From positions 209,566 to 273,565 of the forward strand of contig CAJNOJ010000137.1 of assembly GCA_905250025.1 (NCBI GenBank): a DNA stretch of 64,000 bases, given 5' to 3'. Made by a program: the position numbers and the translations under genes. Under the pieces are notes generated by a model. That model worked only from the letters and a program-made list of their open reading frames with translations. It searched no databases and had not been told where the DNA came from. Source of the DNA: Adineta ricciae (Eukaryota; Rotifera; Eurotatoria; Adinetida; Adinetidae). Shown here piece after piece: positions 8,632-33,607 of the stretch (its first letter is position 1; every line of letters begins with the position of its first letter).

Positions 8632-9231
8632 TCAGAGAAGAAAACAAATGCTTACATGTGAGAAACATTCCAATGTATTCAATACAATCGACTGTTTTCG
8701 GTGGGAAAAGATTTTTCGTTATTGAACTCATTGAATGCGATACAACGAAATATCATGTTTGCAGACAATCGTCATGTACAAGTGAAATTGATGAATCAAA
8801 CATACAATGTACGTGAAGTTAAGAATGCGGTCATATTCGAATGCACATTCATAAATCGAATTCCCCTACAAAAACATCGATGTCTTTTCAATATGTTTTC
8901 AATTGATTTTCAAACGATGTGAAAAGTTTCATTTATAAAAACCAATATTTATTTTTAATAGAGCATGTCTGAATATAGCCTAAATTTAATTGAGAAAAAC
9001 TATACTTGCTGTATGTTTACTAACTAAATATTCGTTTTGTTTTGCTCAGTAATGATACGGTGAAAAAGACGTAATATTCCATGCACGCAACGAAATGGTA
9101 TTCACGTTAGTAATTTTTTCCAGTTCTTTTTTCAAACCAACGTCGTATATTTCCATATGTATATATACAGCGAGTGCCGTTAAAAATAACGCAGTATACT
9201 TCGATTTTTTTTTCGTGGAAACACACGTACA
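8632..9231. other. Intergenic; unassigned short ORF
   Basis: An open frame at 8701-8922 (plus) gives 73 residues without recognisable motif. The stretch just before 9232 is the presumed promoter of the ART gene (tatatatac about 9160-9168). Confidence 0.3.
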
Positions 9232-10170: not shown

Positions 10171-10476
10171 TCAATCTCACGAACGTAGATTATCTTACTT
10201 TCTTTCTTTGTAATTCTTGCAACACAATAAATAAAATCTCCTCTATTACAAAAATATTTTTCCATCGTCATACTTCTTGAATGACAATGTGCAATGTGAC
10301 CTCTAGATTCGGCAGGATAAAAGTACATCATTCGATGTTTTATTGCGTGCATATACCTCGAAGAATATCGAGCAACACGATATCAGGGTTATATCGGTAA
10401 CCTTATCTATCAGAAAGAAAAGAAAAAAGACACGAGATAAAACATACAGTGAATATTTTCGTATGTTAGAGATCAA
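10171..10476. other. Intergenic between ART and XDH
   Basis: A polyadenylation-like aataaa (about 10227) follows the ART stop. Nothing else recognised. Confidence 0.35.
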
Positions 10477-13400
10477 ATGAAAGGAACGAACACGTCCGCT
10501 GATTTCTTGTTGTTTTATGTGAATGGAAAAGAAATTATTGAGCGTCACGCTGAACCTGAATGGACACTTCTTTGGTATTTAAGAAATAGTAAATATCTTC
10601 CTACATGCTCACTTCGTATTCTCATGCCGTTTTTTTTAATTTTAGAACTGAAATTAACTGGTTCGAAATTGGGTTGCGGTGAAGGTGGTTGTGGAGCATG
10701 CACAGTTTCAATTTCGCACTGTATCGATAAAAATACTGGTGAAATCGAACATCGCACCATCAATGGTTGTTTAGCACCACTATGTTCCATCGATGGATGT
10801 CATGTAATTACCGTTGAAGGGTTAGGTTCAACGAATAAATCAAATCTTCATTCGACACAAACTCGCTTAGCCGAGTTTTACGCATCACAATGTGGCTTTT
10901 GTACGCCTGGTATGGTCATGTCGCTGTACGGAACCGTAACATCAAAGGATGCATCAACCTTAACGATGGCAGATATCGAAGAATCATTCGATGGAAATCT
11001 TTGTCGATGTACAGGCTATCGCCCGATTCTTGATGCAGCCAAGTCCTTCGCATGCGATATTGATAAGTTCAACACTGAAAAATCGTCATCACCGAACACA
11101 TCAACGACATTTGATAAATGTGCGTCGTTTCTTGGTCAATCTATTGATCAAATTCCATTCCCGGAGAAGCTTCGTGATCATCAACCTCAATCGATTCAAA
11201 TCAAAGGTATGAACATATTTAATGATTCTGTAACTAAACTTTCATACAACAGGTTCGTCAATGGATTGGTATCGTCCAATTACATTAACTGAATTGATTC
11301 ATCTTCGACAAAAGTATCCCGGCAATGAATCAAAACTTCTCTTTGGAAACACATATGTTCAATTCGAAAGAAATATTCAACAACGTACGTTTCCTCGACT
11401 TATCAGTATTACGCATGTCAAGGAGCTGCAAGAAATGAAACGAACTGATGATTTGATCTACTTGGGAGCTGGTGTGACATTTACACGATTGAAAAGTCAA
11501 TTGATGGACTGGAAAGACAATCCCATCTGTCTTGCTTTGTTGAATCAGTTTAAACACTTTGCTTCGACGCAAATACGAAATGTCGCTTCACTCGGTGGAC
11601 ACATCATTGCTGCTTTACCAAAGTAAATCGATTTCTGTTAATTCGAACCAATCTTAATTTCCCGTCTCTTCAGTTCGGATATGAATCCAGTCCTTGTCGC
11701 TGCTGGTGCATTGCTCGAATTGCAACAAGCCAACAGCACCGAAGCACGAATAGTTCCACTATCTGAATTCTTTCTTGGTAGAAACCGTGTTAGTATTGAA
11801 GACAATGAAATTCTTGTAGCGGTTCGTCTTCCACTCAGAAAGTCTTCTAACGCCTATTTCATTCAATCATACAAACAAGCTTGTCGTCGTGACGATTCAA
11901 AAGGTGTCGTCAGCGCTGGATTCCAAGTTGAACTTAAACAAGAGAATGATCAATGGAAAATCACTCAGATCTGTTTGGGATTCGGCGGTGTTGCACCGAA
12001 AACAATTGAAGCAAAAGGTACGCAACAACAATTGGTTGGATTGCCATGGTCAAGAGAGACCATCAATCAAGCATATGATTTACTCTTGAAAGAAATTATT
12101 TTGAACGAATCGACTCCCGGTGGACAAATTCAGTACAAGTAACTTTTCAAAATACAATTGTTCATTGTAATCTTTTCTTTGAATTGTAGACGAACATTGA
12201 TGCAATCGTTCCTATTCAAATTCTATTCGTATGTTTCACAGCAATTGCATACATCTACCGTAAATTTAAACGAATTTTCTTTCAATCGAGCTGTTTCTCA
12301 CGCTCAACAAACGGTTCCTGAACGGCCCGAATCACAAAAGATCGTTGGTAGTTCTATGCCGCATCAATCAGCGTATTTACACACAACTGGCGAAGCGACC
12401 TACATTGCTGATATACCATTACTAGCTGATACACTTCATGCCGCACTGATTCTGAGTAAAAAGGTCAATGCTCGAATCAAAAATATCAGTAAGATTGAAG
12501 TAGACTCGGATTGTTTTACGTTTCTGGTTATTTGATTTACCATAGATACTGAACGAGCATCGAAAGTTCCGGGATTTGTTTCATTTGTAAGCCATGTTGA
12601 TGTTCCTGGTTTGAACAAACCAAATGGAGTGTTACCCGATGAAGAAGTTTTCGCCTCGTCGATTGCGTTATGTGTTGGTGCAGTTATTGGTTTGGTTGTT
12701 TGTGAAACAGAAGAATCAGCCGAACTCGCTGCGAGTCTAATTGATATCGATTATGAATGCTTATCACCAACGATCTTGTCCATTGATGATGCAATCGAAT
12801 ACGGATCCTATTTTGACAATGAGTTTTGTCTTCAACAAGGTAATGTTGAAAAGAGTTTGAAGGAAAGCGAACACTGCCTACAAGATGAATTATATATTGG
12901 CGGACAAGAGCATTTCTACATGGAAACCAATGCTTGTATTGCCATTCCATCAAAAGACGATCAGGAGATGACACTGCACGTAGCTGTACAAAGTCCAACC
13001 GCTGCTCAAGAATTAGTTGCATTAGTTCTTGGTCGTGATACAAGTCGTATAACATGTCATACCAAACGAGTTGGCGGTGCATTCGGTGGAAAAGAATCGC
13101 GAGCGTATGTCTCATCGTGTTGTCTTCAAAATAAGACATTCTTGTTATATTTAGAATTGTATTTTGTTTGGCAGCGGCAGTTGCAGCTGTGAAAGTTGAT
13201 CGTCCTGTTCGTCTTCATCTTGACCGTCATACCGATATAGCAGTAACAGGACATCGGCATCCGTTTAAAATCAAATATCAAGTCGGTTTTAATCATGACG
13301 GGCAAATTCAAGGTCTAGATATTCAAATGTGGAACGATGCTGGTTGTACACTCGATGCTTCGTCATATGTTCTTCAATTGGCAATGCTTCATATGGGCAA

Positions 13401-14810
13401 TACATATCAAATTCCGAATATGCGCATACGCGGTCGTACTTGTAAGACTCATTTGCCATCAAATACGGCGTTTCGTGGTTTTGGCGGCCCACAAGCTATG
13501 CTAGCTTGTGAGAATATTATTGAGCATATTTCGTTTTATCTTCAACGTGATCCATTGACCATTCGCCGTCAAAATTTGTTTTGTGAAGGTGATCAAACAC
13601 ATTATGGGCAATGCTTAGAGTTATGGAATGTTCCACGTATTATCGATGAATTACTTGAAACTAGTGGTTACGATGAAAGACGGCATCTTGTGGATGAATT
13701 CAATCGTGTGAACATCTATCGAAAACGCGGAATCAGTTTAGTTCCCGTGAAATTCGGCATAGGTTTTACCGTTAATTACCTCAATCAAGGCGGTGCTCTA
13801 GTTCATATTTACAAAGACGGTTCAGTCGTCATTAGTCAAGGAGGTATAGAAATCGGTCAAGGATTATATACGAAAATGATCGCAATTGCTGCTGAAGTCT
13901 TACGTTGTGACGTTAAGCGGGTGAGAATCAGTGAAACATCAACTGATAAGGTACATAATATCAGCCCGACAGGTGGATCTATCACAGCGGATATTAATGG
14001 AATGGCAGTGAAAGATGCTTGTGAACAATTGCGACAACGACTGGACGCGTTAATAACAAAAGAGAATAACGATATTTCTTGGGAAGATTTGATTCAAAAG
14101 GCATATTATGCACGAGTCGATCTATGTGGACGAGGCTTTTACGTGATGCCGAACATGTTCGATATGGATTTTAGCAAAAACAAAGCAACTTATAATTATT
14201 TTACACAAGGTGCTGCTGTAACAGAAGTAGAATTGGATGTTTTAACTGGTGATTGGCATATTCTACGTGTTGATATTCTTATGGTATGTTCAGTTCTTCT
14301 TTTATAATAACAATGTAAAAAATTATCTTTTTATAGGACGTTGGTACATCACTAAATCCTCAAATAGATATCGGACAAATCGAAGGTGGATTTATGCAAG
14401 GTGTGGGTTTATACACTATGGAAGAACTTCAATGGGGTGATGAAAAGCAACATGGATGGATTTCGCCAGGACAATTGTATACTCTTGGACCTGATACTTA
14501 TAAAATTCCATCATTTAGCGATGTTCCGATCGATTTTCGTGTTTCACTATTATCGAACTCATCGAATCCACGCGCTGTATTTTCCTCAAAAGGTATTGGC
14601 GAACCGCCTCTTCTATTGGGTACATCGGCTTTCTTCGCTCTTAAGCAAGCTTGTACTGCTTATCGAAAGCAACAAGGATTGGACGACTATTTTACTCTGC
14701 ATTCTCCTGCTTCTGTCGAACGACTCCGAATAGCTTGTGCCGATGAATTCACTCGTCGAGCATGCAACGACCAATCGCACGAAACCTTTCAACCAAAAGG
14801 TTCGTATTGA
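10477..14810 (+). CDS. XDH: Xanthine dehydrogenase, eight exons, 1322 aa
   Basis: Oxidises hypoxanthine to xanthine and xanthine to urate (purine catabolism) in the cytosol, with two 2Fe-2S clusters, FAD and a molybdenum cofactor. Exons: 10477-10588, 10646-11206, 11253-11622, 11674-12138, 12190-12488, 12546-13104, 13155-14283, 14337-14810; total 3969 nt, exactly 1323 codons, near the 1333 aa of human XDH. Seen in order: plant-type 2Fe-2S motif GCGEGGCGACTV, second cluster CGFCTPGMVMS and NLCRCTGYRPI, FAD domain (YRPITLTELI, LLFGNTYVQF), Moco domain GGQEHFYMET, VGGAFGGKESR, FRGFGGPQAML, and the catalytic glutamate in SKGIGEPPLL. In the sixth intron the acceptor ending at 13154, not the later CAG near 13173, keeps frame and restores conserved sequence. 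No break; probably functional. A partial copy of its 3' end starts at 19513. Confidence 0.95.
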
Positions 14811-15098: not shown

Positions 15099-17066
15099 AT
15101 GGCTGTGGTAAATAATAGAAAAAAATGTTTTATATGCAACAAGGATAGAATCACATATTCTTGTGAAGGTTGCTCAAATCAGTTTTGTTTAGCACACTTA
15201 ACAGAACACCATCAGAAGTTAAGTGCAGAATTGAATTCAATCATTAATGATTACGATCAATTCAAACAAACTATTAATGAAAAACAACCGAATTTAGATT
15301 TGATCAAGCAAATTGATCAATGGGAACAAAAGTCAGTTGCATTAATCAAGGAAACAGCTGATGAGTGTCGGAATAAAGTTGTCCAAGAAACAAAATTATT
15401 TATTAAGGAGATTGAAAAGAAATTCGATAAATTAATTCAACACATCAAGGATATTCGTAAAGAAAATGATTTTAATGAAAGTAATTTGAATTATTTGCGA
15501 GATAAATTAAAAGAAACGACGAGAGAATTCAATAATTCGATTAACATTACTCTCGAACAAGATACTTCGCAATCATTTATTAGAAAGATTTCAATTAAAA
15601 GTACGTAACAACCTCAATCATTTCTAGTTAGAAAATCTATTGAGATTTCATTCGAATGTGGTCACTGTTCTAGTGAGCAATGCTACTGATTCACATGGTT
15701 CTTCATCATCTCCTGTGATTTATAATTCTCATTGGAGTAAGATGACAAAGTGCTATTGACACATGCAACATGTTTGAAATTGAATAGGTGAGGTCTGGTT
15801 GGATCTTCAGTTTCATGATAACTCTAAAACAATCAAGAAACCCGATGAGTTGGGACCAATGAGTGAACCACCAGGTTCAATAGATGAACAGATTCTCAAT
15901 CGGATTCAAGGTTCTATGATTGGATTGGCATTGGGTGATGCTCTTGGTGCACATGTTGAATTCCGCCCTCACGATTATTTAGTTGCACATCCGGTAACAG
16001 ACCTTCAACGAGGTGGAACTTGGGGTCTTGAGAAAGGACAGGTATACTTCTTATTGCTATATAAAGTAAAAGCTGAGAGAGATATATGAAATTTTCACAC
16101 GCATAATTACGCGCTTCCTCAAATATCATTGGTTAGCAAGTTAATGAATGAACGCTGCGGAATATGAGTAATAAAATGTCTCTGTTAATATTCATTTAGT
16201 TCACCGATGACACTTCAATGGCACTTTGCTTGGCAAATTCTTTGATTGTTAACCGTGGTTTCAATGCTTACGATCAATTAGTTCGGTACAAATGGTGGTA
16301 TAAATATGGATACATGTCGTCAACTGGACAATGTTTTGATATTGGAGCAGCTACGATACAGTCGATAGATGAATTTAACTGCAGACAAAACAAGCTTAGC
16401 AAAGAAAAAAATATTCCAAAGGAAAAAATTGATTACCTTTCTGATCCTGAATTGTTAGATAGCTTCCCGGTGTATTGCAGCGAAGAAGGCCTAGCAGACA
16501 ACGGGGCTCTTATGCGCCTGGCGCCAGTACCACTCTTTTTCTATAGAGATCCTAAAGCGGCCGTTGAGTTTTCTGGTTTTAGCGGACAAATAACGCACGG
16601 AGATACGAAAGCGTATGATGCATGCCGATATTATGGAGCATTGATCGTTGCTGCTCTTCAGGGCAAAAGCAAAGATGAACTATTACACAATAACTTCTAT
16701 GAAAACCATAAGCCCTGGTTTAGTGGGAAAGATCTTCATCTGGATATAAAATCAATTGCTGAAGGATCGTATAAAAATAAAAAAGGTTATGACGGTGGTA
16801 TTCGAGGCAAAAAATATATAGTCAGTGCGCTCGAAGCGGCATTGTGGGCGTTTTGGTCCACTAAGAATTTTGAAGATGGTGCGCTTGCTGCTGTTAATCT
16901 TGGTGACGATACTGATACAACAGCAGCGATCTATGGTCAATTAGCTGGCGCTCACTATGGATACGACTTATTGCCCAGAAAATGGACTAGACACGTCTAC
17001 GCTGAAGGCTTTATGAAAATGTTAAGTAAATGGATTGCGTACGAAGGAGAATGTTGGACAAAATAA
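15099..17066 (+). CDS. B-box/coiled-coil + ADP-ribosylglycohydrolase fusion
   Basis: Three exons (15099-15600, 15788-16041, 16200-17066; 1623 nt, 540 aa). Exon 1 encodes a B-box-like zinc finger (CFIC...CEGC...FCLAHLTEH, residues about 10-40) and a long coiled coil (about 40-165). Exons 2-3 encode a DraG/ARH-fold hydrolase with the three metal-binding motifs: GLALGDALGA (212-221), FTDDT (253-257) and GDDTDT (487-492). ARH enzymes remove ADP-ribose from proteins or cleave related ADP-ribose bonds using two Mg ions. The join follows from the donor GTACGT at 15601 (phase 1); the alternative donor four bases later breaks frame, and reading through gives a stop. A second copy lies at 20575-22540 with identical exon lengths. 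The fusion suggests a hydrolase oligomerised or targeted by a TRIM-like N-terminus. The substrate bond is not known. Confidence 0.8.
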
Positions 17067-17402
17067 AAACACTTCGCTCGGTTGTAAACGTCGACAGATG
17101 ACATGTGTTCTTTTTTTAACTGTTTTATTGGCAATTTCATTCGTGACTCGTTGCGTCGACGGACACTATTCGCCGAAAAGCAATAGCAGATTATTTTATT
17201 TTGCCATATAAAACTACCATGATAAATCTGCATACGCATTGCTTGAGATAACGAGATTAATACGATTGCTTTATTTGCCAACGAAATTCTATTCTCTCTT
17301 AAATCTTATCAAATGCTTTAGTAAGTTATAAAATTCGATAGGGAATCTATTGTTATTGACATATAAAAGTCAACATTTGTAAAGCCCTTTCTACACAAAA
17401 TC
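17067..17402. other. Intergenic between ARH and kinase genes
   Basis: No gene seen. The sequence is strongly conserved in the second copy (22541-22878), including acatataaaagtcaac about 45 bp before the kinase ATG, a possible TATA element. Confidence 0.4.
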
Positions 17403-19349
17403 ATGGCAGAAGGTCGAAGAGACGACAGTTTTTTGAAAATAAGTTCAAGCGATCTCAAGTTTGAAAGAATATTAGGAAGCGGTGGTTTTGGAGATGTTTA
17501 CAGCGGAAGGTGGATCAGCCGATGTGAGAAAGTTGCCATAAAAAAGCTCCGTATCGATGCTAGTTATATCACATTGAACGAAAGAAATGTGTTTTTTGAA
17601 GAAATGACCATGATGCATCGTATCCGATTTCCATATGTCCTCAATGTGTTTGGTGTCTGCTTGGATCCGGGCTGTTTGGCAATTGTCGTCGAATATATGT
17701 CACTTGGGTCTTTATATGATGTGATCCGCAATAATGACTTGACCTGGCCCGATCGATGGTCAATTGCTAGTCAGATGACCAAAGGAGTGAATTATCTACA
17801 TCAGTTCAGCCCGAATCCCATCATTCATCGTGATATCAAATCGTTTAACTTTCTTATGGCTTCAGGTGTAAATGAGAGCAACCATCGATTCCATGTCAAA
17901 GTGGGCGATTTTGGTTTATCTAGATTTCGTCCGACGTCCGACTTACAACTGACAGCTGATGGGCAATTAGGAACGCTTCTGTGGAAAGCTCCCGAGTTAT
18001 TTCGTGACCACTCGTCTCACACGATGATCAGCGATGTGTATTCGTTAGGTGTGTGTTTCTGGGAATTAGTGAGTGGCCGACTCCCATACGAAGAACTCAC
18101 ATTAGAGCGTTTCTTTCTGGAAGTAGTTCTGATGGGAAAAACACTAGAAATACCATCGAATGTACCAGATCATTTCGCGACTTTGATCACCAGTGCAACC
18201 AAGTTCACTCCAGATGAAAGACCAACCTGTCTTGAACTGTTGAAGTACATCGAAAACGATCTGAGACGTCAAGGTTTGTCTGATTCGAGGTAAGAAAATG
18301 ATAGAATCAGCTTGATATTGATCTTTTTGTATGAAGTACTAGTGAGTCTCAATCTCGTGTGTCAAAACCGCTTGGTTTGCCAACTGGGGCAACGACATCC
18401 AGGTATGTCCGAATACTCAACTCTTTCATTCACATCTAGATGCATAACAATGCCTTTGCTCTTGTTTTACCTTCTTAGTGACCGCCGAACAACCAAGTCT
18501 ACACTATCACCGACGAAAACATATTCAAATCGGAAACTTGAGAACACTATCAAACACACTGAAACATTTTCAGCAATTAAATTAGAAGATCAAGCATTTA
18601 CAAATGACGATATGGTCATTATTGGCACTGCATTAACGAAAAATCAAGCTTGTCAAGATCTGGCTCTTCGAAACAGTGATATTACCGCCATAGGTGTGAC
18701 GTTTCTAAGCTTAGGCCTAGCCACCAACCGTACATTGACATCGTTGGACTTGAGTGAAAATCCTCTTGAGTCGGTGGGTGTTTCGAATCTTGCTCGTACT
18801 CTTCATTTTAATTCAACGCTGACAACGCTTCGGTTAAATTCGACCAATATGCGTGATGATGGTCTAAAAGAACTCAGTAACATGTTTCTGATCAATCGCA
18901 CACTGGAATTTCTGACGATATGCGACAATCATCTTACTTACGTCGGGGTGCGGGTTCTATGCGATGCACTGGAAAACAACACGTCTCTCCGACGTATCGA
19001 TATGAGCAAAAACAAAGTGGACGATGAAGGAGCGGCTTCTATCGGGCGATTGTTACGTCGCAATAGTACACTCTCGAGAATCTCCATGGACGAAACGGAA
19101 ATTGGTGACGATGGCTTGAGATCAATATCCCATGCTCTTGAAAAGAATAATACTCTGCGACAGATAAGCCTTGCCAACAATTTAATCACAGATGGTAGTA
19201 TCCAGATGATTATTGTCATAATTGAGACAAATCGAAGTTTACGATCACTTGAATTACAGTCCAATAAGTTATCTTCAAAGGGCAAGTCCAAAATTCGCAA
19301 AACAGCTGCACAATCTAGATGCGATGTAGTGCTCTCTGAACGAGAATAA
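17403..19349 (+). CDS. Protein kinase-LRR protein (TKL-like), 605 aa
   Basis: Three exons: 17403-18289, 18343-18402 (60 nt) and 18479-19349; total 1818 nt, 606 codons. The N-terminal kinase is complete: glycine loop GSGGFGDVYSG (25-35), VAIKK lysine (Lys47), IHRDIKSFNF (HRD Asp144, Asn149), GDFG (Asp169) and an APE motif. Overall it looks tyrosine-kinase-like (TKL) and serine/threonine specific (HRDIKS). The short middle exon is a Ser/Thr-rich linker. The C-terminal 220 residues hold about seven ribonuclease-inhibitor-type LRRs (for example LTSLDLSENPLESVG, LRRIDMSKNKVDDEG). No signal peptide or TM segment, so a cytosolic sensor or scaffold kinase is likely. The layout recalls LRR-carrying innate-immunity kinases, but the ligand is unknown. 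The kinase stop at 18291 seen without splicing is avoided by the donor at 18290. Copy 2: 22879-24827. Confidence 0.8.
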
Positions 19350-19511: not shown

Positions 19512-19512
19512 N

Positions 19513-20208: not shown

Positions 20209-20574
20209 GGCAGAAAAAAAAATATACGTTTTTCTTTCAAATTTTAAACTAAATAAACATACGGGTGTGAGTGGCGGCTAGATACACGAAATTCACTCAT
20301 ATTCCTCAGCTTGCTAGGATACACTTTTATTTGGGTATCGTGTTGGATACACTGACTCAGCTGCTTATGGTAACGTAGCGAATTGGCTCCTTTTGGACGA
20401 ATACCGCGTGTAACAGGATTATGACATCCCTCCAATAAGGTATTCTGTTGAAGATTTTGCTATTGTTGATAAGGAAGGAAAAGAGTTCTTTTTTCCTAGT
20501 GTGTCTTGAGATATGCGCTAGAACGCAAACACACAATCATTGTCGTTCTTTTCACAACGCTTCATTCTCAACAC

Positions 20575-22540
20575 ATGGCTGTGGCAAATAATAAAAAAAT
20601 ATGTTTCATATGCAACAAGGATAGAATCACATATTCTTGTGAAGGTTGCTCAAATCAATTTTGTTTAGCTCACTTAACAGAGCACCAACAGAAGTTAAGT
20701 GCGGAATTGAATTCAATCATTAATGATTACGATCAATTCAAACAAAGTGTTAATGAAAAACAACCGAATTTAGATTTAATCAAGCAGATTGATCAATGGG
20801 AAGAAAAGTCAATTAAATCAGTCAAGGAAACGGCTGATGAGTGTCGGAATAAAGTTGTCCAAGAAACAAAATTATTTATTAAGGAGATTGAAAAGAAATT
20901 GGGTAAATTAATTGAATACATAAAGAATATTCGTAAAGACAATGATTTTAATGAAAGTAATTTGAATTATTTGCGAGATAAATTGAAAGAAACGACGAGA
21001 CAATTCAATAATTCGATTAACATTACTCTCGAACAAGATACTTCGCAATCATTTATTAGAAAGATTTCAATTAAAAGTACGTAACAACCTCAATCATTTC
21101 TAGTTAGAAGATCTATTGAGATTTCATTCGAATGTGGTCACTGTTCTAGTGAGCAATGCTACTGATTCGCATGGTTCTTCATCACCTCCTGTGATTTATA
21201 ATTCTTGTTCAAGTAAGATGATAAAGTGCTATTGATACATGCAACATGTTTGAAATTGAATAGGTAAGGCCTGGTTGGATCTTCAGTTTCATGAGAACTC
21301 TAAAACAATCAAGAAACCCGATGAAATAGAACCTATGTATGAACCACCAAGTTTAATTGATGAACAGATTCTCAATCGGATTCAAGGTTCTATGATTGGA
21401 TTGGCATTGGGTGATGCTCTTGGTGCACATGTAGAATTTCGCCCTCACAATTATTTAGTTGCACATCCGGTAACAGAGCTTCGAGGAGGTGGAACTTGGG
21501 GTCTTGAGAAAGGACAGGTATACTTCTTTTTGCTATATAACGTGAAAGCTGAGAGAGATATATGAAACTCACATGCATAATTACACGCTTCCTCAAATAT
21601 CATTGGTTAGCATATTAATGAAGGAACGATACGGAATAGGAGTAATAACATGTTTCGGTTAATATTCATTTAGTTCACCGATGACACTTCAATGGCACTT
21701 TGCTTGGCAAATTCTTTGATTGTTAACCATGGTTTCAATGCTTACGATCAATTAGTTCGGTACAAATGGTGGTATAAATATGGATACATGTCGTCAACTG
21801 GCCAATGTTTTGATATTGGAGCAGCTAATAAACAGTCGATAGACGAATTTAACCGCAGACAAAACAGGCTTAGCAAAGAAAAAAATATTCCAAAGGAAAA
21901 AATTGATTCCCTTTCTGACCGTGAATTGTTAGATAGCTTTCCGGTGTATTGCAGCGAAGAAGGCGTAGCAAGCAGCGGAGCTCTTATGCGCCTTGCGCCA
22001 GTACCACTCTTTTTCTATAGAAATCCTCAAGCGGCCGTTGAGTTTTCTGGTTTTAGCGGACAGATAACGCACGGAGATACGAGAGTGTATGATGCATGCC
22101 GATACTATGGAGCATTGATTGTTGCTGCTCTTCAGGGTGAAAGCAAATATGAGCTTTTGGACGACCAGTTCTATGAAAAGCATAAGACATGGTTTAGTGG
22201 GAAAGATCTTCATCCAGATATAAAATCAATTGCCGAAGGAACATATAAAAACGATAAAGGTTATGATGGTGGTATTCGAGGAAAAGGGTACATAGTTAAT
22301 GCGCTCGAAGCTGCATTGTGGGCATTTTGGTCCACGAAGAATTTTGAAGATGGTGCGCTTGCTGCTGTTAATATTGGCGATGATACTGATACAGCAGCAG
22401 CGATCTATGGTCAACTAGCTGGCGCTCACTATGGATACGACCAATTGCCCAGAAAATGGACTAGACACGTCTACGCTGAAGACTTTATGAAAATGTTAAG
22501 TAAATGGATTGCGTATGAAGGAGAATGTTGGACAAAATAA
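20575..22540 (+). CDS. B-box/coiled-coil + ADP-ribosylglycohydrolase, copy 2
   Basis: Same structure as the gene at 15099: exons 20575-21076, 21264-21517 and 21674-22540, with exon lengths (502, 254, 867 nt) identical to copy 1. B-box cysteines, GLALGDALGA, FTDDT and GDDTDT are all conserved; differences are mostly conservative (for example DTTAA to DTAAA). An upstream in-frame extension to 20506 exists, but the ATG at 20575 matches copy 1 and gives the B-box its usual N-terminal position. Both copies keep open frames and splice sites, so selection has probably kept both. Product 540 aa, predicted soluble. Confidence 0.8.
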
Positions 22541-22878
22541 AAACACTTCGCTCGGGTGTAAACGTCGACAGATGACATGTGACCTTTTTTTGACTGTTTT
22601 ATTGGAAATTTCTTTCGTGACTTGTTGCGTCGACGGACACTCTATTCGCTGAAAAGCAATAGCAGATTATTTTATTTTGCCATATAAAACTACCATGATA
22701 AATCTGCATACGCATTGCCTGAGATAACGAGATTAATACGATTGTTTTATTTGCCAACGAAATTCTATTCTCTCTTAAATCTTATCAAATGCTTTAGTAA
22801 GTTATAAAATTCGATAGGAAATCTATTATTATTGACATATAAAAGTCAACGTTTGTGAACCCCTTTCTACACAAAATC
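22541..22878. other. Intergenic, copy 2
   Basis: Conserved counterpart of 17067-17402. No gene. Confidence 0.4.
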
Positions 22879-24827
22879 ATGGCAGAAGATCGAAGAGACG
22901 ACAGTTTTTTGAAAATAAGTTCAAGCGATCTCAAGTTTGAAAGACTATTAGGAAGCGGTGGTTTTGGAGATGTTTACAGCGGAAGGTGGATCAGTCGATG
23001 TGAACAAGTTGCCATAAAAAAGCTTCGTATTGACGCTAGTTATATCACATTGAAGGAAAGAAATTTGTTTTTTGAAGAAATGACCATGATGCATCGTATC
23101 CGATTTCCATATGTCCTCAATGTGTTTGGTGTCTGCTTGGATCCAGGCTGTTTGGCAATTGTCGTCGAATATATGTCACTTGGGTCTTTATATGATGTGA
23201 TCCGCAATAAGGACTTGACCTGGCCCGATCGATGGTCAATTGCTAGTCAGATGACGAAAGGAGTGAATTATCTACATCAGTTCAGGCCGCATCCCATCAT
23301 TCATCGTGATATCAAATCGTTTAACTTTCTTATGGCTTTGGGTGTAAAGGAGAGCAACCATCGATTCCATGTCAAAGTGGGTGATTTTGGTCTATCTAGA
23401 TTTCGTCCAACGTCCGACTTACAACTGACAGCTGATGGGCAATTGGGAACGCTTCTATGGAAAGCTCCCGAGTTATTTGATGACCAATCGTCTCACACGA
23501 CGATCAGCGATGTGTATTCGTTAGGTGTGTGTTTCTGGGAATTAGTGAGTGGCCAACTCCCATACGAAGAACTCACATTAGAACGTTTCTTTCTGGAAGT
23601 GGTTTTGAAGGGAAAAGCACTAGAAATACCATCGAATGTACCAGATCATTTCGCGACTTTGATCATCAGTGCAACCAAGTACACTCCAGATGAAAGACCA
23701 ACCTGTCTTGAACTGTTGAGGTACATCGAAAACGATCTGAGACGTCAAGGTTTGTCCGATTCGAGGTAAGAAAATGATAGAATCAGCTTGATATTGATCT
23801 TTTTTTGCATGAAGTACTAGTGAGTCTGAATCTCGTGTGTCAAAATCGCTTGGCTTGTCAACTAGGGCAACGACATCCAGGTATGTCTGAATACTCAACT
23901 CTTTCATTCACATCTAGATGCATATCAATGCCTTTGCTCTTGTTTTACTTTCTTAGTGACCGTCGAACACCCAAGTCTACACTATCACCGACGAAAACAT
24001 ATTCAAATCGGAAACTTGAGGACACTATCAAACACACTGAAACATTTTCAGCAATTAAATTAGAAGATCAAGCATTTACAAATGACGATATGGTCATTAT
24101 TGGCACTGCATTAACGAAAAATCAAGCTTGTCAAGACCTGGCTCTTCGAAACAGTGATATTACCGCCATTGGTGTGACGTTTCTGAGCTTAGGCCTAGCC
24201 ACCAACCGTACATTGACATCGTTGGACTTGAGTGAAAATCCTCTTGAGTCGGTGGGTGTTTCGAATCTTGCTCGTACTCTTCATTTTAATTCAACACTGA
24301 CAACGCTTCGGTTAAATTCGACTAATATGGGCGATGATGGTCTAAAAGAACTCAGTAACATGTTTCTGATCAATCGCACACTGGAATTTCTGACGATATG
24401 CGACAATCACCTGACTTACGTCGGGGTGCGGGTTCTATGCGATGCACTGGAACACAACACGTCTCTCCGATGTATCGATATGAGCAAAAACAAAGTGGGC
24501 GATGGAGGAGCGGCTTCTATCGGGCGATTGTTACGCCGTAATAGTACACTCTCGAGAATCTCCATGAACGAAACGGAAATTGGTGACGATGGCTTGAGAT
24601 CAATATCCGATGCTCTTGAAAAGAATAATACTCTGCGACAGATAAGCCTCGCCAACAATTTAATCACAGATGGTAGTATCCAGATGATTATTGTCATAAT
24701 CGAGACAAATCGAAGTTTACGATCACTTGAATTACGGTCCAATAATTTATCTTCAAAGGGCAAATCCAAAATTCGCAAAACAGCTGCACAATCTAGATGC
24801 GATGTAGTGCTCTCTGAACGAGAATAA
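22879..24827 (+). CDS. Protein kinase-LRR protein, copy 2
   Basis: Exons 22879-23765, 23821-23880 and 23957-24827 (887, 60 and 871 nt, the same as copy 1), 605 aa. All kinase motifs are kept (GSGGFGDVY, VAIKK, HRDIKS, GDFG, APE) as are the LRRs. A longer reading from 22855 adds eight residues, but the ATG at 22879 is shared with copy 1. The 60-nt linker exon differs at several codons (for example LPTGAT to LSTRAT), a more variable part than the two domains. Expected to act like copy 1. Confidence 0.8.
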
Positions 24828-25949: not shown

Positions 25950-26876
25950 ATGAATCAAACGCAAGTCAATACAAATGTTATTGCCACGATCGAAGATTAC
26001 TATCTTGTAGCCTTACTTTCCAGTGTCTTTGGTGTATGCGGAATAATCATCAGTACATATATAATGATTTTAATTGATCGAGCTAAATCTCGTCTACGTA
26101 CTGTTCATCGTCTTCTGGTCAATAACACATGTTTTGCATCGATCTTCTACAGTGTCATTACGATGATCAATTATATCGTCTTTATTTTTGCACAATGGGA
26201 GACCAGTAACATTGGTTGTAAATGGCGAGCATATCTCGCTTACGTGGGCATTGCTGGCGTATTACATTCGTATATGATTCAAGCGATATCATGTATCTGT
26301 TCTTGTGTGTTTTCAACAACGCATCGATGGTTGACAACAACTAAAACGCATTATTGTCTTATTGCTGTTCAATGGTTGATCGTTCTCGTCATTACGTTGT
26401 CGACGCTGATAACAGATGATGTTCAATATCGTCCTCAGAAATTATGTTTCATTCCAATCAAAAAGACTTTACATGCTATCTGCGCTATATTTGCATATTA
26501 TATTATTCCATTGGCTACTACTATCGTTATCTATGTATTTATATTTTGTCGAATGAAGAAAACCATCAAGATAAACAGTACATATCAACGTGTTAAACGC
26601 GATCTCGAAGCTCTGCGAAATATCATTTTTCTCATTGGTATTTATATTACTAGTGGACTGCCAAGTATCATCTACTTTTTTTCACCATCCAAGTATCTTT
26701 ATTTAATCAATTTGGCCACTCAATCATTGGCGGTTACTCTTGCAACATCAGCGACTCTGTTATTAGATAGAGAAATTTGTCGATTGATCAGAACTAGTCT
26801 GTGTCGAACAACGCTTGTGGTTCCATTTGATAACGCGCATAGTATCAGCAAAGGTCAAGCAAATCGTCATGGATGA
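25950..26876 (+). CDS. Rhodopsin-like GPCR
   Basis: Single exon, 308 aa, seven hydrophobic segments (about residues 18-42, 54-78, 92-115, 134-155, 174-198, 224-243 and 251-270). N-terminal NQT is a possible N-glycosylation site. A TM3 cysteine (GCKWRAY) and an extracellular-loop-2 cysteine (KLCFIP) could form the usual disulfide; the DRY position is degenerate (CVFSTTHRW). Asn-rich TM1 and a basic tail fit class A. It belongs with the many small orphan GPCRs of bdelloids; ligand unknown. An upstream frame at 25868 is out of phase and is not the gene. Confidence 0.8.
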   Translation: MNQTQVNTNVIATIEDYYLVALLSSVFGVCGIIISTYIMILIDRAKSRLRTVHRLLVNNTCFASIFYSVITMINYIVFIFAQWETSNIGCKWRAYLAYVGIAGVLHSYMIQAISCICSCVFSTTHRWLTTTKTHYCLIAVQWLIVLVITLSTLITDDVQYRPQKLCFIPIKKTLHAICAIFAYYIIPLATTIVIYVFIFCRMKKTIKINSTYQRVKRDLEALRNIIFLIGIYITSGLPSIIYFFSPSKYLYLINLATQSLAVTLATSATLLLDREICRLIRTSLCRTTLVVPFDNAHSISKGQANRHG

Positions 26877-27026: not shown

Positions 27027-28064
27027 TCAGACGGTGTTCATTGCTTCTTTAATCATTGTTTCAATTAAATTTTCTAAAGATATTCCAGCAGTTTTGGACA
27101 TCAGGGATAATCCGCCACCATCACCGAATGAACAAAATAAACCAGCTTCTAGAAACCAAGCTTCTCCGTTAGGATCGATTCGAAATTCGAATAGGCTATA
27201 GTGCCGACAACCTAAAGCCCGATGGCATATCTTCGCCATTTCTTGAACTTGCTGAGTTACCGGATCATTGGTATTCGTAATCCAATGTTTTCCAACATCG
27301 TCGTCGGGATAACCAATAAATTCACCATCATCATCTAATTCGGGAAACTTAACAGCATAATCACGAATGGGCCGATCGTTAATATCTAAAAGATATTCTT
27401 CTAATGGTAAAGCAACGAGTTGGCCATCTTTTACAATAATGCAGCATCGAACTTCTCGACCGGGTTCAATAAATTTTTCTACTAAGACTTCATCTGCATG
27501 TTGAAACGCATGTTCAAGTGCAACACTACAATCTTTCATATTCCTAACTAACGATATACCCAAGGAATTATCAGCGCTTACGGGTTTGACAACGACTGGT
27601 GGTAGAATAGTTGGGACATCTCCACGACGAAGTAATTCACCAGCGGGAACTTTAACACCTGCTGCTGCAACAACTGCCTTGGTTCTACCTTTATGAGCTG
27701 TTAACGCCATGACATCTGGCGTATTTCCGATGTAAGGTATGCGAAGAAGATCGAACAATGCACGATAATACGTCACTCCAGGTATGCAATACATGTGTGG
27801 TATGACAAGATCGAAACCTTCTTTTTTGATATATTGTATAGCATCGACCAGACACATTGGTTTGGCGGCATCAATATCGTCTTGTTTGAGCGAAGAAACA
27901 AATCGCCAATAACTATCGGGTGTTACATATGCAATTTGAAAGTTTTTTATCGACGAAACATTGGCTGTATTTTCTAAACAACCTTCCGCATATCGATATG
28001 ATAGATCACAATAAAAATCGTTGTATGTAGAGCCAACTAGATGAAGAACACGAAGCGATGACAT
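27027..28064 (-). CDS. D-Ala-D-Ala-ligase-like ATP-grasp enzyme, bacterial type
   Basis: Intronless, 345 aa from the ATG at 28064 (open upstream to 28139). ATP-grasp features: HKGRTKAVVAAAGVKVP, PVVVKPVSADNSLGISLV (phosphate-binding loop), EVLVEKFIEPGREVRC and a C-terminal metal site FRIDPNGEAWFLEAG. Ddl ligases join two D-alanines for peptidoglycan; animals do not make it, and acquisition of a bacterial Ddl is documented in bdelloids (Gladyshev and colleagues, 2008). Oddity: the usual E-x-N metal pair followed by PGMT appears here as LEAGLFCSFG, so the metal-binding Asn is replaced by Gly and substrate use may have changed. It lies among animal genes in unbroken sequence, next to another ATP-grasp relic, so contamination is unlikely. 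Confidence 0.85.
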   Translation of the reverse strand: MSSLRVLHLVGSTYNDFYCDLSYRYAEGCLENTANVSSIKNFQIAYVTPDSYWRFVSSLKQDDIDAAKPMCLVDAIQYIKKEGFDLVIPHMYCIPGVTYYRALFDLLRIPYIGNTPDVMALTAHKGRTKAVVAAAGVKVPAGELLRRGDVPTILPPVVVKPVSADNSLGISLVRNMKDCSVALEHAFQHADEVLVEKFIEPGREVRCCIIVKDGQLVALPLEEYLLDINDRPIRDYAVKFPELDDDGEFIGYPDDDVGKHWITNTNDPVTQQVQEMAKICHRALGCRHYSLFEFRIDPNGEAWFLEAGLFCSFGDGGGLSLMSKTAGISLENLIETMIKEAMNTV

Positions 28065-28447
28065 AATCTTGTTTGAAAAAAAGAACACCAAACTTTTTAT
28101 CTTCATATTTCTGTATTTCTTATATAGGAAACCGAACAAAACAAAATAACGTTATTTAAAGATTAAGGAGTATAGGCTTAGTACGTACATTCTCGTATAC
28201 GTTCGGTTATATAATCGAGTGTGGTTTGGTGTATACCGTGTGATACTATTCGCTGTTATGTCATTCGTAGCAACGGGTTAAGCCGAGTGAGATCATTCAA
28301 TATTTCGTAAAGAAATCGTTTGCACTTGTTGATCTTTTTTTGTACTTTAAACGTATATTCATTCTTTGGCGAGCGTTCTTTTTATTTGTTTTTCTATTCA
28401 ATCACGTGTGTATCTCAAACAATCACCGAAAGACTTTTCCTTTTCAC

Positions 28448-29390
28448 ATGGCTTCTTTTCAAACATCCGGTCTCTATTCGAAAATTCATCACATAATCAA
28501 AACAATCGGCTTTTTGGTCTTATTTCTACTCGCATTTCCATTGACATTTACCATTACATGGATAACATTAATAATTCATTTTCTCACACGAAAACCACCA
28601 AGAATTAATGCAAACGCTAAATGTATTCTATTATGCAACGGAGGTAAAACCAAAACTTTACAATTAGTGCGCTCATTCCGTTGTTCTTACGGAATGCTAT
28701 CCATATGCCACAAATCGATATTCTCAATGTGTGTCGAATTTTTATCTAAGTGCCGATCCGAACAATGAATTGGAATACATTCAATCGATTGTCGACATCG
28801 TCAAACGAGAACATATTGATTTTTTTCGTTCCAGTATCTCATTCATCAAGGGAATGCCTTGATGCATTAGTTAAACAAACATTAATCTTATTGAAATGTC
28901 AGACGATCCACGGCGACCTTGAACAAGTACAAATGATGTGCGATAAATATTCATTTATTGTCTAAGCACGTACATTTGGATTAACTGTACCATAATCGTA
29001 CAGAATTACGGACCCAAAGCAGATTTTAATGTTTGATTTTACCCAAGACAAATGTCATTTCATTCCAAAACGCATTGAATACGATTGTGCTAATCGGACG
29101 AAGCTGATTAAACTTCCATGTGAAACACGAGCGCAAATAGAGAACTATGTGAACGAATTGACTATTAACGAACAAAATCCGATGCTCGTCCAACTTATTG
29201 GTTATATCACGAACTGCGGAATATTTCGAAAATACGAAGTTTTCAAGACCTAATCAAACAATGTCAAATATTCTTTTAGGGAAAAGAAGCTCTATATTTA
29301 ATTGATGATCCGCTGCCCTTTTTCCTTCACTATACCGTTCATCTACCAAGAGTGGTCATATATCATCTCATTCATATGATACCTTTTGAT
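28448..29390 (+). pseudogene. Decayed carbamoyl-phosphate-synthase-like ATP-grasp gene
   Basis: The ATG at 28448 opens a frame with a TM segment (about residues 18-45) and AKCILLCNGGKTKTLQLVRS, the nucleotide-binding start of a family of ATP-grasp proteins known from bdelloids and fungi. The frame then shifts: NRYSQCVSNFYL...ELEYIQSIVDIVKREHID continues one phase over, FVPVSHSSRECLDALVK in another, followed by DKYSFIV. TAA codons follow SFIV (about 28963) and VP (about 28990), then SYRITDPKQILMFDF and TKLIKLPCETRAQIENYVN. A further piece, GKEALYLIDDPLPFFLHY, is at about 29280. At least two frameshifts and two stops make it dead. It is divergently placed from the Ddl-like gene. Confidence 0.75.
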
Positions 29391-29770
29391 AGAATTGATT
29401 GTATAATCTTTCGTTCTGTTTTTGAAATAAAAACTGAATGTGTGAGCGACGACTCCATACTGAAATTGATTTCCTTGCTCTTTTTAAGACACCCTCATAT
29501 TTTTTGTGCGTGGATGACATCTATATTACATAATTCTTTCTTTCTCTTTTTTTGTTTTACATTGGTGATGTTTACGAACGAGTTAAGGCATTTGTCATTC
29601 TATCTCAAGTACAAAAGTTAAAGAAAAGTGTTGACGAACGAAAAACGAAGATCTGGAGCAAGTTGACATAAAGATCACAGATAAGAACGCTCAAACATTT
29701 CGTGCTATCAACAGTACCAGTATAGTATTTCAGGTGTCTTAGAACTGTTGCAAGGATTCGGCGACCTTCA
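29391..29770. other. Intergenic; no gene seen
   Basis: Separates the ATP-grasp pseudogene from the diguanylate cyclase. Pyrimidine-rich around 29530-29560; nothing coding recognised. Confidence 0.35.
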
Positions 29771-31030
29771 ATGCACAGTATGCGAAACTTCCAAAGAACT
29801 TCTCATATGTCAATAGAACAAAATATCGAACTACTTCAGATGCCGAAGAAACATGTCCGATTAACATTACGACAATTGCTTCAGCGTTATTATTCGATTG
29901 TAATTTGCATGCTCTTGCTTTTCGTAGAAACAACGATCTTATTGCTTTCTCTATCTGCTATACGCCGCTATGCAGAAACTAATATGGAATTGGTAGCGTC
30001 ACTGGTCAGCTATAACATCCGGGCGGCAGTACTCGCAGATGATCATCGGGCAATAAGAGAAGTACTGTCGATAATTGATCAACGGAGGCACGTTGCTGAA
30101 AGTCGAGTCTACGATGTGAAGTACAATCTGTTAGTCAGTTGGAAGTCCGAAATCATCGGGCAAACAAGTCAAGCACAAAAGATGATCGCCAAGTGGTTGT
30201 TTCTTAAGCCGATAACCGTACCTATTCTGCATAATCAGCATGAAATTGGTCATGTTTGGTTGAATGGCGATCTTAGAGAACTCACTCATTTCATTTTCTT
30301 GATGTTGCTTTGGTTTACTGGCAGCTTATTGATAATGATTTTTGGAGCATCCTACTTATCATGTCGCAAGTATTCAGATATTAGTATAAGCCATCGAATG
30401 CGCAAACAGCAGACCTTCTCTCAACAAAGGCTGTCATCAACCGTCGCCCAGTTGAACGAATTGTCTAAGAAGAACGAACGTTTGAAAAAGGAAAATAATT
30501 CACTGGCTTGGCTATTACAACACGATCAACTGACCGGATTGTTAAATCGTTCAACCTTTCAAAGTGAATTGACCACAGTTATTGAAAGTCTATCAGAATG
30601 CAAGTATGTTGGTGTATTATTTATTGATGCTGATCATTTCAAAGAGGTCAATGATAAGTACGGTCACGCAGCAGGCGACTATACTCTAATAACTGTTGCT
30701 CAACGTCTACGCAATGCATTACGTAAGGATGACTCAGCAGCGCGACTAGGTGGCGATGAGTTTGCAGTTCTGGTTATAAACATTGAAGCTGTGCACGAGG
30801 TCGAACGAATTGCACGCCGAATAGTAGACGCCATGAACGAGCCGATTGAGTTACCCGATGGTACACGTATCTGTCAGTCTGTGAGTATTGGTATTGTATT
30901 GTCCAAAGAAATGACCAATGCGCAGAAGCTCCTTGCTCAGGCAGATGCAGCCATGTATCACATCAAACGGCGTGGTGGTGGCTGGTACTGGATTTTCAAC
31001 GCAAAAGAGCCAGATTATGCGAACGATTGA
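29771..31030 (+). CDS. Membrane diguanylate cyclase (GGDEF), bacterial type
   Basis: Intronless, 419 aa. Two TM segments (about 42-63 and 173-195) bracket an external sensor-like domain (64-172, ETNMELVASLVSYNIRAAVL..., similar to CHASE8-type periplasmic sensors). A coiled coil (about 215-247) leads to a full GGDEF domain (246-410): HDQLTGLLNR, FIDADHFKEVNDKYGHAAGD, the active-site RLGGDEFAVLV (GGDEF at 327-331) and an inhibitory-site RxxD (R318-K-D-D321) five residues before it. GGDEF enzymes make cyclic di-GMP from two GTP, a bacterial second messenger; in eukaryotes it is known from Dictyostelium DgcA. All catalytic residues are present and no stop or shift is seen. Start uncertain: Met1, Met4, Met13 or Met24 (MPKKHVRL). 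Flanked without gaps by animal genes, so horizontal transfer is likely. Confidence 0.9.
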   Translation: MHSMRNFQRTSHMSIEQNIELLQMPKKHVRLTLRQLLQRYYSIVICMLLLFVETTILLLSLSAIRRYAETNMELVASLVSYNIRAAVLADDHRAIREVLSIIDQRRHVAESRVYDVKYNLLVSWKSEIIGQTSQAQKMIAKWLFLKPITVPILHNQHEIGHVWLNGDLRELTHFIFLMLLWFTGSLLIMIFGASYLSCRKYSDISISHRMRKQQTFSQQRLSSTVAQLNELSKKNERLKKENNSLAWLLQHDQLTGLLNRSTFQSELTTVIESLSECKYVGVLFIDADHFKEVNDKYGHAAGDYTLITVAQRLRNALRKDDSAARLGGDEFAVLVINIEAVHEVERIARRIVDAMNEPIELPDGTRICQSVSIGIVLSKEMTNAQKLLAQADAAMYHIKRRGGGWYWIFNAKEPDYAND

Positions 31031-31360
31031 TTTTGTTCATATACTAGGGCATGGTTAGAAATGCAAACATCATGTCATTTTCTGTTTTGTGTATGATTTG
31101 ATTATAACCGTTTTAAACAGCACACAACGAAACAATGAACAGATACGTATCGAGGAAATTAAATAATAAATTAAGTCCTTCGATGTCACATATACAGCTA
31201 TTGCCTGAATTTGTCTCAATACGGCGATGTTTTTACAAAATCTTTCACGTAGTATTTAACTCGATTTAGAATTAAAGTCAGTCTCTATTCACATAAAACT
31301 GCTGTTGTGGAAATCGATCAAATTCACGTGCTATACTAAAATGTCGATATATTTCAATAC
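31031..31360. other. Intergenic; no gene seen
   Basis: AT-rich, no features recognised apart from short aataaa-like strings (about 31166). Confidence 0.35.
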
Positions 31361-32031: not shown

Positions 32032-32943
32032 ATGAGTATTCCATTAATTAGAAGAGATAAGTCTATTGACAATGAACAAACGGACACGTATTCACCATAC
32101 ATTATCGGCATGACACAACTCAACACGAGCGGGAAGGATCTCGATTATAAGACAGAAGATGTGTCCGGTGCGGAACGTAGTCGTCGAATCGTAGATTCCA
32201 CTGTCGAAAAAGCATCAAAGCCCACTTCCAACGATGATCCTTTTACACAAGACGAGCCTATCATCGGTTACGCACAAGAACAACTTCTACCGCTCATCAA
32301 CGCATGCGAGCCACTCTCTCATATCATTCATAACATCTCACATTACGCACACATCGCACTCACTCGTACTCCACAACTACCACCCGACGGACTAACTATC
32401 GACGAGAGTGCTGCCATTCGTCTCTACACCATGGAATGGCAACAGCCACACCAGAGTCTCTACACCATGCTCAACTATACACTCAAAAATCAAGATCGAC
32501 AGCATCTTCGACCCTATTTCAAGTACATGAAACTGTTCATTACTGCACTGGCCAAACTGCCTTGTTTACCACCGTTGACCATCTGGCGTGGCATAACCAA
32601 AGATGTAAGCAAACAGTTTCTGCCCGGTTATTCGACGACGTGGTGGTCATTTTCATCGTGTACGACTGAACTGACTGTACTGGAAAACAACATCTATTTA
32701 GGTATTGATGGCAAACGAACACTGTTTTCGATCGAAGCGATCAATGCTCGAACAATTCGTGATCATTCTGATTTCACAACTGAAGATGAAGTTCTTCTGT
32801 TACCAGGTAGTCAGATGGTGGTTCAATCACAGTTCATGCCAGCAACTGATCTACATGTGATACATCTGAAACAAGTCGTACCCGAAGAAGTGTTGCTGGA
32901 ACCGCCGTATTTTGGTGCTGATCTATATCCGAAAGCAAAGTGA
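32032..32943 (+). CDS. NAD(P)(+)-arginine ADP-ribosyltransferase, second gene
   Basis: Single exon, 303 aa. Arg186 in IWRG, the S-F-S-S-C-T motif at 206-211 after TTWW, and Glu251-Asp-Glu253 before VLLLPG make the R-S-E triad of arginine-type ARTs. LTIDESAAIRLYT (121-133) matches the corresponding helix of the ART at 9232. The N-terminus (1-75) is polar without the DRP repeats, and no signal peptide is seen. About 140 bp after the stop the assembly flips into an inverted copy of the 5' half (33085-33607). Confidence 0.85.
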   Translation: MSIPLIRRDKSIDNEQTDTYSPYIIGMTQLNTSGKDLDYKTEDVSGAERSRRIVDSTVEKASKPTSNDDPFTQDEPIIGYAQEQLLPLINACEPLSHIIHNISHYAHIALTRTPQLPPDGLTIDESAAIRLYTMEWQQPHQSLYTMLNYTLKNQDRQHLRPYFKYMKLFITALAKLPCLPPLTIWRGITKDVSKQFLPGYSTTWWSFSSCTTELTVLENNIYLGIDGKRTLFSIEAINARTIRDHSDFTTEDEVLLLPGSQMVVQSQFMPATDLHVIHLKQVVPEEVLLEPPYFGADLYPKAK

Positions 32944-33084
32944 GTTGTGTAGTGTTGTTATTTTTGGAGTGAGATTTAATTATCGTTGTCAGGCGTGCAT
33001 GGTACCGGAAGAAAAGGATGTTGGTTTCAATGGGTGTACTATTAATATTTGGCATTGCAGGAATCATTATTGGTTCGGTTTTAN

Positions 33085-33607
33085 TGATGAATAGTTTCAT
33101 GTACCTGAAGTAGGGTCGAAGATGTTGTCGATCTTGATTTTTGAGTGTATAGTTGAGCATGGTGTAGAGACTCTGGTGTGGCTGTTGCCATTCCATGGTG
33201 TAGAGACGAATGGCAGCACTCTCATCGATGGTTAGTCCGTTGGGTGGTAGTTGTGGAGTGCGAGAGAGTGCGGTGTGTGCGTAGTGTTCGATGTTATGAA
33301 TGATATGAGAGAGTGGCTCGCATGCGTTGATGAGCGGTAGTAGTGGTTCTTGTGCGTAACCGATGATGGGCTCGTCGTGTGTTGAAGATTCGTTGTTGAA
33401 TGCGGGTTTTGATGTTTCGACAGTGGAATCTACGATTCGACGACTATGTGAGACGCCAGTTTCGACTTGTGTTTTATGGTTGGTATCTGTTGCATTTGTG
33501 TTTAGGAGTGTCATGTCGATGACGTAGGGCAAATAGCTGTTTGTCGCGCCATTGTTCGTAGTTTTTTTTTGTTTTATCAAAGGAGTATTCATCCCTAAAG
33601 AATACAA
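33085..33607 (-). pseudogene. Inverted 5' half of the ART gene, cut by the N
   Basis: On the minus strand, from ATG 33607, the N-terminal 174 or so residues of the ART at 32032 are repeated with scattered differences (MNTPLIKQKKTTNN versus MSIPLIRRDKSIDN; identical LTIDESAAIRLYTMEWQQ). The copy stops at the N at 33084 near YFRYMKLFI, before the catalytic Arg. The two copies face each other as an interrupted palindrome. Whether the gene is really truncated cannot be told from this sequence. Confidence 0.8.

Follow-up and report, generated by a model that had tools for sequence, protein, structure and literature searches.

A bacterial-type diguanylate cyclase gene with complete catalytic residues and a shortened HAMP linker in the rotifer Adineta ricciae

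The window analysed here is a stretch of 64,000 nucleotides from the rotifer Adineta ricciae (assembly GCA_905250025.1, contig CAJNOJ010000137.1, positions 209,566 to 273,565 of the forward strand), and at window positions 29771-31030 it holds a gene for a diguanylate cyclase, the type of enzyme that makes the second messenger cyclic di-GMP (c-di-GMP). The reading that explains the data best, to which we give a probability of roughly two in three, is that of a horizontally acquired enterobacterial cyclase of the DgcN/YfiN type, which would act as a dimer making c-di-GMP and would be either constitutive or newly gated. Judged from its sequence, the protein keeps the catalytic chemistry and has a broken relay, and the acquired enzyme is probably active but rewired. 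A preliminary description of the same DNA had recognised an intact bacterial-type diguanylate cyclase gene in an animal genome; this is borne out, with the catalytic residues kept.

The gene is a single intronless frame on the plus strand, and its translation gives 419 amino acids followed by one stop, so that the frame is indeed free of internal stops and shifts, as had been described. Behind the in-frame stop at 29723, upstream of the gene, the frame stays open over 434 codons; in 500 mononucleotide shuffles of the 3 kb around the gene, open frames reached at most 166 codons. The parts of the gene, all on the plus strand, are the following.

29771..31030, plus strand: open frame of the CHASE8-stalk-GGDEF protein, 419 amino acids (database entry from codon 13 at 29807, 407 amino acids)
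29897..29959, plus strand: first membrane helix, about residues 43-63, in AlphaFold2 helix 33-82 (membrane call from a hydrophobic run, by inspection)
29963..30262, plus strand: CHASE8 sensor domain, residues 65-164 (Pfam PF17152, E 4.3e-23)
30275..30358, plus strand: second membrane helix, within residues 169-196, in AlphaFold2 helix 169-217 (membrane call by inspection)
30359..30517, plus strand: shortened linker, residues 197-249, with 8 residues gone after 204 and 11 after 234
30518..30976, plus strand: GGDEF domain, residues 250-402, carrying D286, N294, D303, R318/D321, GGDEF 327-331 and K399
31165..31170, plus strand: AATAAA, polyadenylation-signal-like, 135 bases past the stop codon (motif match only)

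An ATTAAA at 31158 also lies downstream of the stop, again as a motif match only.

A protein search with the cyclase, of which the best 120 of 6,273 matches were used, returned a second A. ricciae copy that is 86% identical over 407 residues, lies on a 9,799-bp contig and is already in the protein database as 'GGDEF domain-containing protein'; both copies begin there at codon 13, which gives 407 amino acids. Apart from the window's own protein and this copy, the named matches among these best 120 are all bacterial. The alignment and the tree comprise 49 rows, namely the window copy in its 419-amino-acid form, the second copy and 47 taken from the remaining 118 listed matches, of which 71 were left out.

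The GGDEF domain at residues 250-402 is recognised by Pfam with E 2e-43 and 148.4 bits against a cut-off of 23.8, and the protein has the GGDEF fold of a diguanylate cyclase. In the AlphaFold2 model, in which the GGDEF part is confident, the long helices 33-82 and 169-217 flank CHASE8 and a stalk helix of 27 residues (224-250) follows, so that Pfam, the model and inspection together agree with the earlier layout of two membrane helices, CHASE8, coiled coil (here a stalk helix) and GGDEF. CHASE8 is thus placed between two membrane helices as in DgcN/YfiN, the membrane nature of the helices being called by inspection, and the NCBIfam model of DgcN/YfiN (NF007423, cut-off 325) gives 352.8 bits for the window copy and 356.4 for the second copy. 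The motifs DQLTGLLNR (252-260), FKEVNDKYGHAAGD (290-303), RKDD (318-321) and GGDEF (327-331) stand where the preliminary description, which gave the first and third as DxLTGLLNR and RxxD, had placed them.

Six residues, D286, N294, D303, D329, E330 and K399, are identical in both rotifer copies and in all 47 bacterial rows. We take them to be the metal-, phosphate- and guanine-binding residues, with roles as in PleD, and D286, E330 and K399 presumably have a catalytic role. In the Hypr GGDEF enzymes, which make cyclic GMP-AMP (cGAMP), Ser replaces the guanine-binding Asp. Position 303 is Asp in both rotifer copies, which places them outside the Hypr group and, by this rule, argues for GTP over a mixed substrate. 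The RxxD had been called an inhibitory site, and of this the motif itself stands, in the form RKDD; by itself RxxD need not mean feedback, since YfiN keeps RxxD yet lacks product inhibition, its second arginine site being degenerate (according to passages of PMC3838380). The rotifer protein has S273 and R350 where YfiN has D273 and N351, an equivalence hand-counted from the alignment.

Whereas the catalytic domain is kept, the region between the membrane and the GGDEF domain is not. Eight residues after position 204, which all 47 bacterial rows have, are absent from both rotifer copies. So is a second stretch, behind position 234, which is 11 residues long in 44 bacterial rows and 18 in the other 3. 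The total loss in HAMP is therefore 19 residues compared with 44 of the rows and 26 compared with 3, where seven of the gap columns are also empty in 44 of the 47, and the linker is 56 residues long in the rotifer versus 75 or 82 in bacteria. The second missing stretch corresponds to the central part of the HAMP core, worded ELxxLxxDFNxLxxElexWq in the relevant passage of PMC3838380; the 11 core residues (FN..LL.E..W in Erwinia) and the 8 others are absent from both copies, and the intact HAMP core of DgcN/YfiN is not present. HAMP was detected at E up to 1 in six of six bacterial proteins, all below the Pfam cut-off of 25 bits, and in neither rotifer copy.

The loss is concentrated in this region. 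There are 31 strictly invariant columns in the 47 bacterial rows, 28 of which are kept by both rotifer copies, and the three lost are all in HAMP/linker. With a 95% threshold, 38 of 40 GGDEF positions are kept in both copies (of the other two, one differs in both and one in a single copy) and 5 of 6 in CHASE8, versus 4 of 14 in HAMP/linker, where six are deleted and four changed; the difference between HAMP/linker and GGDEF corresponds to a Fisher p of 2e-6.

The comparison of the two copies provides information about selection on the gene, which is intact and, it appears, conserved. They align without a gap over 407 sites and differ at 56 of them, with 14 differences in the 153 GGDEF residues and 20 in the 100 of CHASE8. 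The differing sites are those that vary among bacteria: their mean column entropy is 2.19 bits versus 1.70 by chance (398 scorable sites), a value not reached in any of 20,000 draws; within the GGDEF domain alone, 28 of 20,000 draws were as high as the observation there. When neutral change was simulated up to 56 differences, a mean of 3.7 stops arose and 83 of 4,000 runs (2.1%) remained without a stop; 324 runs reached the observed BLOSUM mean, a result that is weak when taken alone, 103 changed as few of the conserved sites as observed, and none combined all three. These tests bear on the period after the two copies diverged and not on all of the time after the transfer. That the gene is a non-functional relic which has not yet decayed is improbable, considering that the 56 differences are placed non-randomly and have produced neither stops nor gaps. 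Decay does happen here, as 28479-29065 just upstream looks like a frame-broken gene copy with relatives elsewhere in the genome, and this, like the 20 differences in 100 sites of CHASE8, is what a relic would lead one to expect.

The tree places both copies inside a 12-row set with support 100/100. Six of the ten other rows in this set are named, and all six are enterobacterial (two Erwinia, Pantoea, Xenorhabdus, Edwardsiella and Cedecea); a 7-row clade with Erwinia and Pantoea stands beside the rotifer copies with support 91/85. The donor lineage was probably enterobacterial and Erwinia/Pantoea-like, the exact sister of the rotifer copies being moderately certain. A relatives search and phylogeny had been proposed earlier for the GGDEF domain; those made here with the cyclase lead to enterobacterial DgcN-type proteins as the nearest relatives, those of Erwinia/Pantoea type, at about 42%, being the best full-length bacterial matches among the 120 listed. 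A scan of genome contigs kept 80 loci, whose listed matches begin from residue 212 on (best segment 49%) and stand outside the tree.

The searched A. ricciae genome comprised 130.46 Mb in 1,033 contigs, the smallest of 10,113 bp, and seems to cover contigs from about 10 kb upwards. It contains one GGDEF match (controls positive in 8 of 14 genomes). The best full-length bacterial match, from Erwinia billingiae, is 42% identical, and GGDEF alone reaches up to 51%, both among the best 120 of 6,273 matches. Because of this identity of about 42% and the sole GGDEF match in 130 Mb, the gene is to be regarded, on sequence evidence, as an old transfer rather than contamination. A bacterial contaminant or a chimeric contig would suit the bacterial type of the protein and the fact that the cyclase protein of the window is listed with a contig of 7,116 bp instead of the 273,565-bp one; such an origin is hardly credible for a gene of rotifer-type base composition, whose 19-residue loss is common to both copies and found in none of the 47 bacterial rows, and whose second copy has the same neighbour, judged by the equal 9,799-bp contig size. 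The place of the gene in an animal genome, as described earlier, stands; a foreign gene is less of an oddity here than in other animals, since bdelloid rotifers are known to carry many of them.

Nothing else of the known bacterial c-di-GMP network turned up in the searched A. ricciae genome. At E up to 1 there were no matches there to EAL (controls positive 7/14), PilZ (5/14), HD_5, the HD-GYP family (5/14), or the YfiR family PF13689, whose control was positive in one of 14 genomes, E. coli. A search for the STING ligand-binding domain gave no match in A. ricciae and none in any of the tool's 14 control genomes either, so that a rotifer STING may have escaped it. Six Mab-21/cGAS-like matches, one of which contains a TAG, were found in A. 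ricciae, which means that this animal family is detectable exon by exon.

These findings can be joined into a mechanism. The gene would have been transferred from an enterobacterial lineage long ago, leaving a protein now about 42% identical to bacterial ones and two copies that are 86% identical. The protein would sit in a membrane with its GGDEF domain and, by their charge, its basic ends on the cytosolic side, and with CHASE8 facing outwards or into a lumen. Two GGDEF domains could be brought together by the membrane/CHASE8 part and by the shortened stalk, and the paired domains would then join two GTP into c-di-GMP. N235, L238, N242 and L245 are left in the stalk helix after the HAMP loss, residues 225-271 align without gaps to the stalk coiled coil of 6et7, and the loss of 11 residues, or roughly three turns of the helix, would leave the helix face as it was; stalk-mediated dimerisation is plausible. 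The idea that the deletion had created a GCN4-like zipper was dropped, the heptad score being no better than in several bacteria. Because HAMP is broken and no YfiR was found, the bacterial on/off relay would be lost, and the enzyme may be constitutively active or respond to a new signal or ligand. Whether the animal makes its own 3'3'-c-di-GMP in this way, with the HAMP switch cut out and the enzyme constitutive or newly gated, as an internal signal or aimed at bacteria that it eats or lives with, is in our judgement evenly balanced.

Several observations weigh against an active cyclase of this origin. At four of the 67 conserved sites the copies carry different residues (A76E, I206T, L249S and L326I). 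The Erwinia/Pantoea placement is not a starred branch (91/85), the stem, at 1.0 changes per column, is long, and warnings of long rows and of an odd letter make-up of both copies come from the tree tool. No c-di-GMP-degrading enzyme or receptor was found in the searched genome. The stalk alignment to 6et7 reaches only E 0.24 for the short piece alone, and the heptad score of the stalk is modest, being equalled in 23 of 2,000 shuffles and as high in several bacterial stalks. Lastly, HAMP is broken here, and in Pseudomonas aeruginosa YfiN it is reportedly needed for dimerisation and catalysis, the isolated GGDEF domain without HAMP binding GTP but not catalysing (passages of PMC3838380). With residues of HAMP missing and HAMP reported as necessary for YfiN catalysis, the activity of the rotifer protein is likely rather than given.

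The protein could instead be expressed and constrained and fail to cyclise for want of a productive dimer, serving as a membrane sensor, as a binder of GTP or c-di-GMP, or as a scaffold. This is rather unlikely. Degenerate GGDEF proteins usually lose catalytic residues, and here D286, E330 and K399 are unchanged in both copies and the membrane helices, CHASE8 and a possibly dimerising stalk are still present; in favour of a non-cyclising protein, besides the behaviour of the YfiN domain just described, is the loss of conserved positions in one or both copies, 10 of 14 in HAMP/linker versus 2 of 40 in GGDEF.

To our knowledge, c-di-GMP counts as a signal of bacteria, one that animals sense but do not make. 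If the proposed acquired cyclase is active, A. ricciae would be the first c-di-GMP-producing animal and would belong to the second such group of eukaryotes; an animal gene for c-di-GMP synthesis with an intact active site and a broken switch would be the second eukaryotic case after Dictyostelium. With it one could ask directly how one domain of life comes to adopt a second messenger of another, and it raises the question of what receives c-di-GMP, given that no EAL, HD-GYP or PilZ protein was found in the searched genome.

The window count gives single N letters at 19512 and 33084 and none in between, which means that the cyclase is joined without N to a G-protein-coupled-receptor-like (GPCR-like) gene (25950-26876) and an arginine ADP-ribosyltransferase (ART) gene (32032-32943). 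To the left of the cyclase are a D-Ala-D-Ala-ligase-like gene, the GPCR-like gene and a glutathione S-transferase (GST) gene, and to the right is the ART gene. The N-free linkage to GPCR and ART genes described earlier is therefore correct, with the qualification that the gene next to the cyclase on the left is of bacterial type and no ordinary animal gene:

27027..28139, minus strand: D-Ala-D-Ala-ligase-like ATP-grasp gene (Pfam and protein search), neighbour of the cyclase

The GPCR-like gene has no Pfam match at E 0.01, and many of its relatives in the protein search carry PF00001, which we take to be the 7tm_1 receptor family. There is no match within the window to TGTGGGTGTGGG, presumably the telomere repeat.

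The neighbouring ligase also has an A. ricciae copy (92%) on a contig of 9,799 bp, and from the equal size of both copies' contigs the cyclase and ligase pair appears to exist twice. The ligase copies are closer to each other (92%) than to that of A. vaga (77%), a pattern that speaks rather for divergent haplotypes, or for a late duplication, as the origin of the two copies; A. steineri has a 60% relative among the 120 listed. Neither A. vaga nor A. steineri has a cyclase among the best 120 of 6,273 cyclase matches. The 28 matches to the GPCR protein include no A. ricciae orthologue on a contig of 9,799 bp, and the nearest other match from A. ricciae is 44% identical. DNA searches with the flanks did not find the second cyclase locus in A. 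ricciae contigs above about 10 kb. Synonymous divergence in A. ricciae is given as 0.14 for homologs and 1.27 for ohnologs in the passage concerned of PMC5916493.

Other features of the surroundings are recorded here in their own right. The ligase has two 59% paralogues on another contig (C142), and its named bacterial relatives listed are mostly cyanobacteria at about 60-63%. The stretch 28479-29065, directly upstream of the cyclase, looks like a frame-broken gene remnant and has two 63% DNA relatives on contig C202 (L088, L089). The cyclase protein of the window is listed on the 7,116-bp contig and the neighbouring GPCR protein on the 273,565-bp contig. Judged by eye, 15099-19349 and 20506-24827 form a tandem duplication of four genes, whose products are a Cys-rich coiled-coil-like protein, an ADP-ribosylglycohydrolase, a protein kinase and one like leucine-rich-repeat proteins. 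A block with ART and xanthine-dehydrogenase-like genes (9200-14306) recurs a short way upstream on the window's own contig (C137:202876-208016) with 94% identity. ART genes at 9232-10170 and 32032-32943 and ADP-ribosylglycohydrolase genes at 16218-17066 and 21692-22540 bring writers and erasers of ADP-ribosylation within about 24 kb. An inverted partial ART copy, also recognised by eye, lies beside the ART gene at 32834-33607 on the minus strand and contains the single N at 33084.

No report on the rotifer cyclase gene was found in the open-access PubMed Central (PMC) literature, of which the matches to some queries were available in part, and the word 'cyclase' does not occur in PMC3499245 or PMC11258130. 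The closest known system is DgcN/YfiN (TpbB) of Enterobacterales and Pseudomonas, which shares the two membrane helices, CHASE8 and a GGDEF domain with RxxD, provides the best PDB fold match and defines the NF007423 model whose cut-off is passed. The rotifer protein differs in being encoded by an animal, in the 19 missing HAMP residues and in that no YfiR-type partner was found in the searched genome; it is a descendant of DgcN/YfiN that departs from the bacterial system in two defining features, the intact HAMP and YfiR. Dictyostelium DgcA is also a prokaryote-type diguanylate cyclase present in a eukaryote after horizontal transfer (passage of PMC10559540); PMC4686194, as excerpted, calls its gene the earliest putative diguanylate cyclase to be found in a eukaryote and reports its product and stalk-inducing role. 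The rarity of c-di-GMP synthesis among eukaryotes noted earlier agrees with a passage of PMC10399225, which names Dictyostelium as the sole eukaryote known to synthesise it. Dictyostelium belongs to the Amoebozoa and is not an animal, and the rotifer gene, compared with DgcA by description only, has enterobacterial nearest relatives. In the Idiomarina cyclase coupled to a phytochrome (6et7, 5llw) and in 3i5c, a GCN4-WspR fusion that is among both the sequence and the fold matches, a stalk helix likewise leads straight into GGDEF, but the rotifer protein has no phytochrome or response-regulator part, and the short alignments are weak (E 0.24 and 0.73). Finally, with other bdelloid foreign genes, among them DNA ligase, trehalose and biosynthetic genes, the cyclase shares the fixation of a non-animal gene in a bdelloid genome; those genes belong to metabolism or repair, whereas the rotifer cyclase would make a bacterial second messenger.
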